23,552 nucleotides of DNA from a virus. Made by a program: the position numbers and the translations under genes. Shown here piece after piece: positions 7,600-9,986 of the stretch. The DNA lies in IMG/VR virus record IMGVR_UViG_3300044961_000978, positions 1-23,552 of that record, one strand, 5' to 3'. Position 1 is the first letter of the stretch; the number at the start of each line of letters is the position of its first letter. The notes beneath the pieces were generated by a model. The model saw only the letters and a list, made by a program, of their open reading frames with translations, was not told where the DNA came from and did not search any database.

Positions 7600-7920
7600 T
7601 TAGGTCGTCTCCCCCTCGCGGCGGGCGGTGGCGCCCTCGGCCATGCCGATGCGGATGGCGAGCAGCAGTTCGGCTGCGGTCCAGCCAGCAGCGCCGAGCT
7701 CGCGTGCCGCGGCCAACGCACCGGCGGTGTTGAGCGTCAGGCCCGCCATGGTGGCCTCGGCACAGGCCGTGCCGGCGGCCCAGCAGGCGTGGCCTTCGAG
7801 GCTGGTGGGGGCATGCGCGGCGTAGGGGCAGGCGTCAGCGCAGTCGCGCTCCAGGCCAGCGCAGCCGCGGCAATAGGCGGGCCCGCGACCGAAGTGCCAG
7901 GCGGCGCGGGCCCTCAGGCG
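7600..7920 (-). CDS. gpT-like -1 frameshift extension of the tail assembly chaperone
   Basis: This frame encodes 106 residues ending in TAA just before the tape measure ATG. It has no start codon near its 5' end; the first ATG is about 60 codons in. It lies in the -1 frame relative to the 125-residue chaperone, and the two meet at GGGAAAC (see the separate element). The expected product is the first 124 residues of the chaperone joined to these 106, about 230 residues, analogous to lambda gpG-T. The extension has a six-cysteine pattern, C-x2-C-x6-C-x3-C-x14-C-x6-C (starting AYCRGCAG, then ERDCADAC), which could bind zinc or an iron-sulphur cluster. It ends in an Ala-rich helix (WTAAELLLAIRIGMAEG). 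In gpG-T the extension recruits tail tube subunits to the tape measure. Confidence 0.8.
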   Translation of the reverse strand, partial: RLRARAAWHFGRGPAYCRGCAGLERDCADACPYAAHAPTSLEGHACWAAGTACAEATMAGLTLNTAGALAAARELGAAGWTAAELLLAIRIGMAEGATARREGETT

Positions 7921-7926
7921 TTTCCC
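7879..7926 (-). promoter_or_regulatory. Programmed -1 ribosomal frameshift element
   Basis: Reading the minus strand, GGGAAAC (7926-7920) is phased G GGA AAC in the chaperone frame, the canonical X XXY YYZ arrangement and one base from the lambda G-T site GGGAAAG. Six bases follow (GCCTGA, containing the zero-frame stop). Then comes a perfect 9-bp stem: GGGCCCGCG (7913-7905) pairs with CGCGGGCCC (7887-7879) around a 17-base loop. Spacing and stem strength match known -1 frameshift stimulators. Slipping opens the downstream frame that lacks its own start. Confidence 0.85.
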
Positions 7927-8291
7927 TCGGCGGCCACCGCGGCGACTGGCGCGGTGGCGCGATCCCAGAAGGCCGCCGCGATGTCGTCGAGGTCCATCAG
8001 GCGCTCGACCGCCTCGGGCGAGAGCGGCAGCGACTTACCGACGGCATCGCCGACGCCCTCCCAGGCCGTGACGGCGTGGCGGGCGAGCGCCTTGACCAGT
8101 AAGGCGAAGGACAGGCCGCGCGACATGTCGGGATCGAGCTCCGGATCGGCGATGCGGATCGCCGCGAGGCGGCGCGCGGCGGCGGCCTGCGCCGCGGCCA
8201 TGACCGCCGTCGTCACCGGCCGGATCTCGACGCGGACGCCGCGCGGCAGCTCGAGCCAGTACGGCTCGGCCGGAAGGTCGAGGGTGAGCAT
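7914..8291 (-). CDS. Tail assembly chaperone, gpG-like
   Basis: The protein has 125 residues from ATG 8291, with AGGAG six bases upstream. It lies between the tail tube and tape measure genes apart from the inserted accessory cassette, the position of lambda gpG. The sequence is small, acidic and helical after a beta N-terminus (MLTLDLPAEPYWLELPRG, VRVEIRPVTTAVMAAAQ), the pattern seen in siphophage chaperones that coat the tape measure. The last codons GGA AAC GCC TGA form part of a -1 slippery site, so a fraction of ribosomes should make a longer form. Function is inferred from position, size and frameshift; the N-terminal segment also matches proteins in related alphaproteobacterial phages as I remember them. 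Confidence 0.8.
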   Translation of the reverse strand: MLTLDLPAEPYWLELPRGVRVEIRPVTTAVMAAAQAAAARRLAAIRIADPELDPDMSRGLSFALLVKALARHAVTAWEGVGDAVGKSLPLSPEAVERLMDLDDIAAAFWDRATAPVAAVAAEGNA

Positions 8292-8357: not shown

Positions 8358-8651
8358 ATGCCGAACGCCAACCCAGCCGCCCGTCCGGGCGTGACTGTCC
8401 GCCTCGACCCCGAGGCGCACGCGCGCCTCCAGCAGATCGCCAAGGCCGAACATCGTTCGGTCGCCGCGGTGCTGGAACTGCTTGTCGAGCGCGAAATCCG
8501 GGCGCGCGACGAGGCCGAGCGCGTGATCCGCTTGCATGTGGCCCCTGAACTTCAGGGCCAGTCCTTCGGCGAGCCCGACCGCCGTCCAGGCGAGAGCGAC
8601 AAGAGCTATGCTCGCCGCAAGAAGACCATCGACGCGTTGTTCGGCCGCTGA
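8358..8651 (+). CDS. Ribbon-helix-helix antitoxin-like protein
   Basis: This 97-residue protein starts at ATG 8358. Residues 11-45 (VTVRLDPEAHARLQQIAKAE, then SVAAVLELLVEREI) have the strand-helix-helix pattern of Arc/MetJ/CopG DNA-binding proteins. The basic C-terminal tail (SDKSYARRKKTIDALFG) could wrap a toxin. The next gene begins seven bases after its stop on the same strand and looks PemK/MazF-like, so I read this as the antitoxin of a type II pair. A palindrome directly upstream is a candidate operator. The strand is opposite to the surrounding tail genes, a typical sign of an independently expressed moron. Antitoxin function is inferred from domain and neighbour. Confidence 0.72.
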   Translation: MPNANPAARPGVTVRLDPEAHARLQQIAKAEHRSVAAVLELLVEREIRARDEAERVIRLHVAPELQGQSFGEPDRRPGESDKSYARRKKTIDALFGR

Positions 8652-8657
8652 GGCGGC

Positions 8658-9095
8658 GTGGCGGATTGCCCGATCCCGTCCGGATGCTTTGTCTGGACCA
8701 TGTTCCCGTTCGGTCCGCCAGATCCGCCCGACCAGCCGGGGCCAGTGCGGCACATCGCCTACGTGCTGGCCACCGACAGCAAGCCAAAAGTGCCGATGCT
8801 GCTGCTGGCCTACACCAGTTCGGGGCCGTGGCGTGGCGCCGCCGCCCGGCTGCCGCTGGGCGTGGTCGAGTTTGACGACGCTGCCGCGCGCTCGGTCGGC
8901 CAGAAGGCGTTCCACCTGGATCTGCGTTGCCTAGCGCAGGTGCCGCTGTCCGAGCGCTGGTTTCCCGATCTCGGCCAAGCCGGTCTAGGCATTGTTGGCA
9001 GGGCCGGCGCTCGGCTCCGCGAGCGGATCGATGTGATGCTGAGCGACCTGGTGACTCGGAACCGTGACCTAATTGAGATGCGCGGGCCGCGGTAG
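8658..9095 (+). CDS. PemK/MazF-like toxin candidate
   Basis: The protein has 145 residues from GTG 8658, with GAGG just upstream; an in-frame ATG at 8700 is an alternative. The pattern FVWTMFPFG, PGPVRHIAYVLATD, LLLAYTSSGPW and QKAFHLDLR followed by PLSERWF resembles PemK/MazF family members in proteobacteria, where a PGP-x-R/H loop, an A-Y/F-x-TS strand and a K-x-D-L...LP...WF segment are conserved. MazF-type enzymes cut mRNA. The partner upstream is a ribbon-helix-helix protein, the usual arrangement. The gene converges on the minus-strand orphan. Assignment rests on motif memory only; it could also be a non-toxic phage protein with the same barrel. Confidence 0.55.
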   Translation: MADCPIPSGCFVWTMFPFGPPDPPDQPGPVRHIAYVLATDSKPKVPMLLLAYTSSGPWRGAAARLPLGVVEFDDAAARSVGQKAFHLDLRCLAQVPLSERWFPDLGQAGLGIVGRAGARLRERIDVMLSDLVTRNRDLIEMRGPR

Positions 9096-9182: not shown

Positions 9183-9908
9183 TCAGGGATGGACCTGGAA
9201 GGCTCGCCCAGCGTCACGAGGGTCAAGCAGAATTATCTTGTCGAATCCGGCCGCATGCAGCCTGACTTGATCAAGAAAGAGTTCCTGCTCGAAGTCGTCG
9301 AGTCCATATCCGATGTGATCTGGAAGCACGAGCCACCACTCAGGATACTTCGCCCGGTAGCTCGCAATCTTGGCTGCCTTCTCAGCGATGCAGTGCTTCA
9401 GGTTTGTCTCAATCTCGCCGATCAGCCAGCCGCCGGACTGTTCGTCGCTGTGACCAGCGGGCCGAAAGAAGGTTGGCTTCGGGCCTGGCGCGCGGAAAAC
9501 CTTGATCCAGAACTCGCCTCCAACATTCAGCTGTGTCTCGAACGGCTGAGGATCAGCGTGCGTCATGAATGGCAGAAGAAGCGAGTCAAGCTCTCGCTTC
9601 AGGTCCTTCCAGGCCGGCGTAGGTCGACTGAATCGGTAGAAGACGTACCAGCATTGCCCCGAGGCTGGAGCGGCTCCGAGCCCGGTGAGATAGTCCCTGA
9701 CGCGGCGCCAGATCGGGATTGCGGTCTCCTCGAGACCTCGCGGGCCTTTGCCGCTTCCATCATCGTGGTTCTGATTCAGGCGGCGAACTTCAACGGCCAC
9801 GCGACTGTCAGCGAGGAAATCGGGCGGCACGTTGCCATCAGGCTCGTAACGCACGTCGGTGAAGATGCCCTTGAGGTAGCTCTCGACCAGCTTCTCCGAA
9901 GCATCCAT
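9183..9908 (-). CDS. Orphan protein with PD-(D/E)XK-like signature (phage moron, possible defence nuclease)
   Basis: I do not recognise a named family. From ATG 9908 the protein has 241 residues (MDASEKLVESYLKGIF...). The frame also opens at TTG 9959, but that codon overlaps a good -10 box. Near residues 25-45 is PPDFLADSRVAVEVRRLN: a PD dipeptide, a short beta strand and E-V-R, the spacing of the PD-(D/E)XK nuclease core with arginine in place of lysine. The middle is rich in W, F and Y, and the C-terminus has WWLVLPDHIGYG and DKIILLDP. Base composition is clearly less GC-rich than the flanking phage genes. It lies between tail tube and chaperone with its own promoter. An antiviral or exclusion role is speculative. 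Confidence 0.65.
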   Translation of the reverse strand: MDASEKLVESYLKGIFTDVRYEPDGNVPPDFLADSRVAVEVRRLNQNHDDGSGKGPRGLEETAIPIWRRVRDYLTGLGAAPASGQCWYVFYRFSRPTPAWKDLKRELDSLLLPFMTHADPQPFETQLNVGGEFWIKVFRAPGPKPTFFRPAGHSDEQSGGWLIGEIETNLKHCIAEKAAKIASYRAKYPEWWLVLPDHIGYGLDDFEQELFLDQVRLHAAGFDKIILLDPRDAGRAFQVHP

Positions 9909-9957
9909 GAGCAGCTTAACCTCTCGTCTTTCAACCCACAGATGGCCGATGCCGCCC

Positions 9958-9986
9958 AATATACACGAGATTCTCTGATGTTGCAG
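9958..9986 (-). promoter_or_regulatory. Predicted promoter of the orphan nuclease-like gene
   Basis: On the minus strand TATATT (9963-9958) is a near-consensus -10 box, unusual in this GC-rich window. It is preceded by 17 bases and CTGCAA, a weak -35. Transcription would start near 9951 and give a leader of about 43 bases before ATG 9908. An own promoter is expected for a moron that is expressed from the lysogen. Confidence 0.5.

Follow-up and report, generated by a model that had tools for sequence, protein, structure and literature searches.

A putative programmed -1 frameshift of the lambda gpG/gpGT type, with a conserved G_GGA_AAC slip site, in a tail assembly chaperone gene of Acetobacteraceae phages

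The gpG and gpGT products of phage lambda are related by a -1 frameshift (Levin 1993; Xu 2004), and their roles have been reviewed (PMC5009743). Programmed frameshifting is usual in tail chaperone genes of this kind (PMC8601537). The g-t shift site of the haloarchaeal virus HCTV-1 is G_GGA_AAC, and in E. coli, within a synthetic A_AAA_AAN series, AAC in the A site slips less than AAG (both PMC5009743). Homologous chaperones are found in the Rhodobacter phages RcKemmy and RcHotPocket (MW677517 and MW677515; genes 15/16 and 16/17), whose records share one layout, with a two-piece chaperone annotated as joined across the two frames. A literature search for frameshifts in Roseomonas prophages found no papers in the library searched.

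The window analyzed here is a 23,552-nucleotide stretch of a virus record (IMG/VR IMGVR_UViG_3300044961_000978), and comes from a phage or prophage whose bacterial hosts are Acetobacteraceae (Roseomonas-type). In bacterial genomes, most close relatives are found in Acetobacteraceae (Neoroseomonas, Falsiroseomonas, Siccirubricoccus and Roseomonas), and the few MAGs that carry other taxon labels may be binning errors. The chaperone gene is located just upstream of the tape measure gene, within the tail module, and the relevant features are as follows.

7914..8291, minus strand: tail assembly chaperone gene (gpG equivalent), frame 0, 125 aa, ATG at 8291, TGA at 7916-7914
7926-7920, minus strand: slippery heptamer G_GGA_AAC, in the X XXY YYZ phase of the chaperone frame
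7919-7914, minus strand: 6-nt spacer GCCTGA, which includes the 0-frame stop; the spacing is kept in relatives, where the stop is TGA or TAA
7879..7913, minus strand: predicted stimulatory hairpin of 9 bp plus 3 bp, beginning exactly 6 nt past the heptamer
7600..7926, minus strand: -1 frame extension (gpT-like domain) with its stop, 106 codons beyond the two re-read slip codons
5430..7598, minus strand: tape measure protein gene, ATG at 7598-7596, matching PF20155 TMP_3 (E 3e-51) and PHROG tape measure families

The frame-0 product of the chaperone gene matches PHROG_313, "Tail assembly chaperone" (E 1e-15), and in tblastn searches the annotated tail assembly chaperones of Rhodobacter phages align with it over its full length at 35-36% identity. 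Neither the chaperone nor the -1 domain is recognized by Pfam or NCBIfam. An AlphaFold model of the chaperone has a pLDDT of 77, and the best viral matches in a fold search include tail assembly chaperones, none of them with E <= 0.001.

The tail tube gene is separated from the chaperone gene by a two-gene insertion on the plus strand and by one minus-strand gene that lacks a family match. The insertion (8358-9092) consists of a ribbon-helix-helix gene (PF01402) and, 6 bases past its stop, a gene for a 145-aa protein of no known family. This layout, on the strand opposite to the tail module, resembles that of an antitoxin-toxin pair. The minus-strand gene (9186-9959) encodes a 258-aa protein with no match in Pfam, PHROGs or PADLOC.

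A sequence-only reading of the window had proposed that a complete gpG/gpG-T system lies at the end of the chaperone gene, with GGGAAAC in the X XXY YYZ phase, a 6-nt spacer that holds the TGA, a perfect 9-bp GC stem, and a -1 frame that is open for 106 codons and has no start of its own. Each of these elements is present. The chaperone ends in ...AAEGNA, encoded by GAG GGA AAC GCC TGA, and the stem has 9 bp without a mismatch between its arms, GGGCCCGCG (7913-7905) and CGCGGGCCC (7887-7879), to which folding adds three further pairs past a bulge. No stop interrupts the -1 frame from 8034 as far as the TAA at 7602-7600, and after the upstream -1 stop its first ATG, GTG or TTG is the ATG of codon 60, at 7749. 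The frame also ends before the tape measure ATG, as had been claimed, but by one base rather than two, which is a counting detail. Counting both strands, the whole 23.5-kb window has only seven heptamers of the form XXX(AAA/TTT)Z, among them the in-phase site 10 nt before the chaperone stop. With the heptamer phase, the position of the hairpin and the coding constraint on the -1 frame described below all in its support, the locus very probably carries a programmed -1 ribosomal frameshift of the lambda gpG/gpGT type. As judged from sequence, the signal is real, conserved and of a known kind, and is almost certainly functional.

In the proposed mechanism, most ribosomes would produce the 125-aa chaperone by stopping at the TGA at 7914. 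The rest, a minority that pauses at the hairpin 6 nt downstream, would slip back by one base on G_GGA_AAC, with tRNA-Gly moving from GGA to GGG and tRNA-Asn from AAC to AAA. Continuing in the -1 frame, these ribosomes would yield a fusion protein about 230 aa long, with the four invariant cysteines in its C-terminal domain. In the gpG/gpGT type, the fusion is produced at a low, fixed ratio. If the roles are those of the lambda proteins, the short form would coat the tape measure protein, and the tail tube subunit would be recruited by the rare fusion, so the ratio of the two products presumably matters for tail assembly.

The locus resembles lambda gpG/gpGT in that the site is upstream of the tape measure gene, the heptamer is near the end of the first gene, and the -1 shift produces a two-domain fusion. 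It differs from lambda in using G_GGA_AAC rather than G_GGA_AAG, in having a hairpin at +6 and a four-cysteine -1 domain, and in that neither domain matches a Pfam family. The C at the last heptamer position had been singled out as unusual. It does depart from lambda but is not novel, because HCTV-1 uses the identical G_GGA_AAC in its tail chaperone gene (PMC5009743); HCTV-1 is likened to the window by this slip site, and its host belongs to a different domain. What is less usual in this system is the invariant four-cysteine motif in the frameshifted domain. RcKemmy and RcHotPocket share the homologous chaperone and -1 domain, the same GGGAAAC in the same phase, and a hairpin at the same place. 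They differ in that the 0-frame stop is about 90 nt further on, and in the sequence of the hairpin and the spacing of the cysteines. G_GGA_AAC is the fixed choice in the window's phage family and in its Rhodobacter relatives.

Conservation of the heptamer phase, the stem and -1 frame coding among homologous loci had been named in the sequence-only reading as the check on its proposal, and all three are found. Eighty viral loci were picked by the chaperone alone, and 79 of them have GGGAAAC at -10 from the 0-frame stop. A further 80 loci, from bacterial genomes, were picked by the profile of the -1 domain alone, and the heptamer is intact and in phase in every one. Seventy-seven of these were read by script, two by alignment (L143, in which the 0-frame stop is changed to TGC and the heptamer is kept, and L154, which has an assembly gap inside the chaperone), and one (L126, whose contig begins inside the chaperone) by a domain-anchored search. 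The two main searches therefore give 159 of 160 loci. The exception, L029, is real: its GAG TGA AAC places a stop inside the slip site. These sequences are related, and the counts are not of independent events; a few loci are also duplicates or near-identical (L167 of L061, L165 of L164, and L173 of L083).

The codons GAG GGA AAC are invariant in 68 of 68 distinct chaperone genes. GGA is used for only four of the 557 glycine codons elsewhere in these genes, and is fixed at the slip glycine in all 68. In two relatives (L087 and L099), the heptamer comes immediately after a TGA of the -1 frame and is itself followed, one codon on, by the stop of frame 0. Because these stops flank the heptamer, any fusion in these relatives must arise within about 9 nt.

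Downstream of the heptamer, pN/pS in 68 sequences is 0.28 in the -1 frame and 1.74 and 1.94 in the other two frames, and the corresponding numbers of stop codons are 0, 26 and 80. Purifying selection on the -1 domain is confined to the -1 frame. A similar picture could come from a gene without programmed function that an indel or a sequencing error has broken, since a frame change inside a conserved two-domain protein can have this appearance. However, some 160 contigs and isolate genomes show the same change at the same base, and purifying selection acts on either side of it. This conservation refutes such a reading, to which we assign a negligible probability.

Another explanation is that the -1 ORF is a separate gene, translated through reinitiation or coupling close to the stop of the chaperone gene, from a CTG codon at 7917 or 7854 or from the internal ATG at 7749. 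The CTG at 7917 overlaps the chaperone stop, and PHROG_11212, a family of 55 aa with no assigned function, resembles a call of the -1 domain made from an internal start. However, a start at 7749 would leave out the region with the conserved WHFG and the cysteines, and three relatives (L132, L141 and L164) do not keep M60. In 145 of 166 loci, no -1-frame ATG, GTG or TTG occurs from 150 nt upstream to +30 into the domain. Reinitiation also leaves unexplained the invariant GGGAAAC with its rare GGA, and the replacement of this heptamer in distant relatives by AAAAAAC or by eight A residues and a G. A separate gene is therefore very improbable. An overlapping -1 ORF that is conserved as protein and lacks its own start is what a frameshift of the gpG/gpGT type involves, and the locus has such an ORF.

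The replacement AAAAAAC occurs in L164, L165 and the unverified phage MT836000, and the run of eight A residues before a G occurs in homologues from Nostoc and Synechococcus phages. The records of the latter two (L083 and L173) have the same sequence in the chaperone region and differ in the hosts named, in length and in annotation. Eight A residues are possibly long enough for polymerase slippage, so perhaps the two frames could be joined by transcriptional rather than ribosomal slippage. However, the window and almost all of its relatives carry only GGG AAA, which is too short for transcriptional slippage, and they retain a downstream hairpin at ribosomal spacing. Transcriptional slippage is thus even less probable than a separate gene, and ribosomal frameshifting is the preferred explanation.

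Relatives whose proteins are as little as about 35% identical keep the hairpin at this position, with a different sequence. In RcKemmy, for example, a different 10-bp stem (arms GCGCCCTTGC and GCAAGGGCGC) is found 6 nt past the heptamer. When compared with dinucleotide shuffles, the window hairpin shows no unusual stability (z 0.28), and folding by this method lacks a signal because the DNA is GC-rich. The shuffles were replaced by a codon-preserving null in which the -1 protein sequence is fixed and its codons are redrawn. By this measure the window hairpin is modestly stable (z -1.7, p 0.036), and the family hairpins are clearly stable, with a median z of -2.1 over 90 distinct sites, 66% of which are below p 0.05. 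The family hairpins use two pairing registers. In one, both partners have changed at four pairs, in each case at low counts and for the most part in distant sequences; in the window's own register and clade, covariation is weak. Some compensatory changes accompany the conserved position. A stimulatory downstream structure is common, although not universal, in the gpG/gpGT type, and is predicted here; no good hairpin is seen in one relative (L078).

The -1 domain contains the motif CRGC...DC...CPY. Four cysteines are present in all complete, correctly framed -1 domains examined; their spacing is variable, and the Rhodobacter form differs. The invariance of the four cysteines suggests a metal site. 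An AlphaFold model of the domain is confident as a whole (pLDDT 86) and weaker (65) in the block where part of the cysteine motif lies. Fold searches with this domain found no significant match, and tape measure chaperones are among the weak viral matches (E above 1). PHROG_11212 matches the C-terminal part of the domain in relatives (E 4e-16 in RcKemmy; L082 2860-3219), and is probably a gene-caller fragment of the frameshifted domain.

One host genome, that of Neoroseomonas lacus, has separate tRNA-Lys UUU and CUU genes, together with tRNA-Asn GUU and tRNA-Gly UCC. Provided that AAG is read by tRNA-Lys CUU, slippage at an AAG site like that of lambda might be poor, as far as can be judged from this one genome. 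A more specific proposal combines two parts: that the frameshifted domain is a Cys4 metal-binding (probably zinc) recruitment domain of a type undescribed among phage T domains, and that the AAC at the end of the heptamer is a response to hosts in which a separate tRNA-Lys(CUU) reads AAG without a slip, the A-site slip having been moved by these phages to tRNA-Asn. We consider this combination rather unlikely, and offer it tentatively.

These observations give good support for annotating one gene with two products throughout a large family of phages and prophages from Acetobacteraceae. They would also account for PHROG_11212 as a fragment of the frameshifted domain. The fixed G_GGA_AAC site provides a natural test of how the choice of slip site is shaped by host tRNA content.
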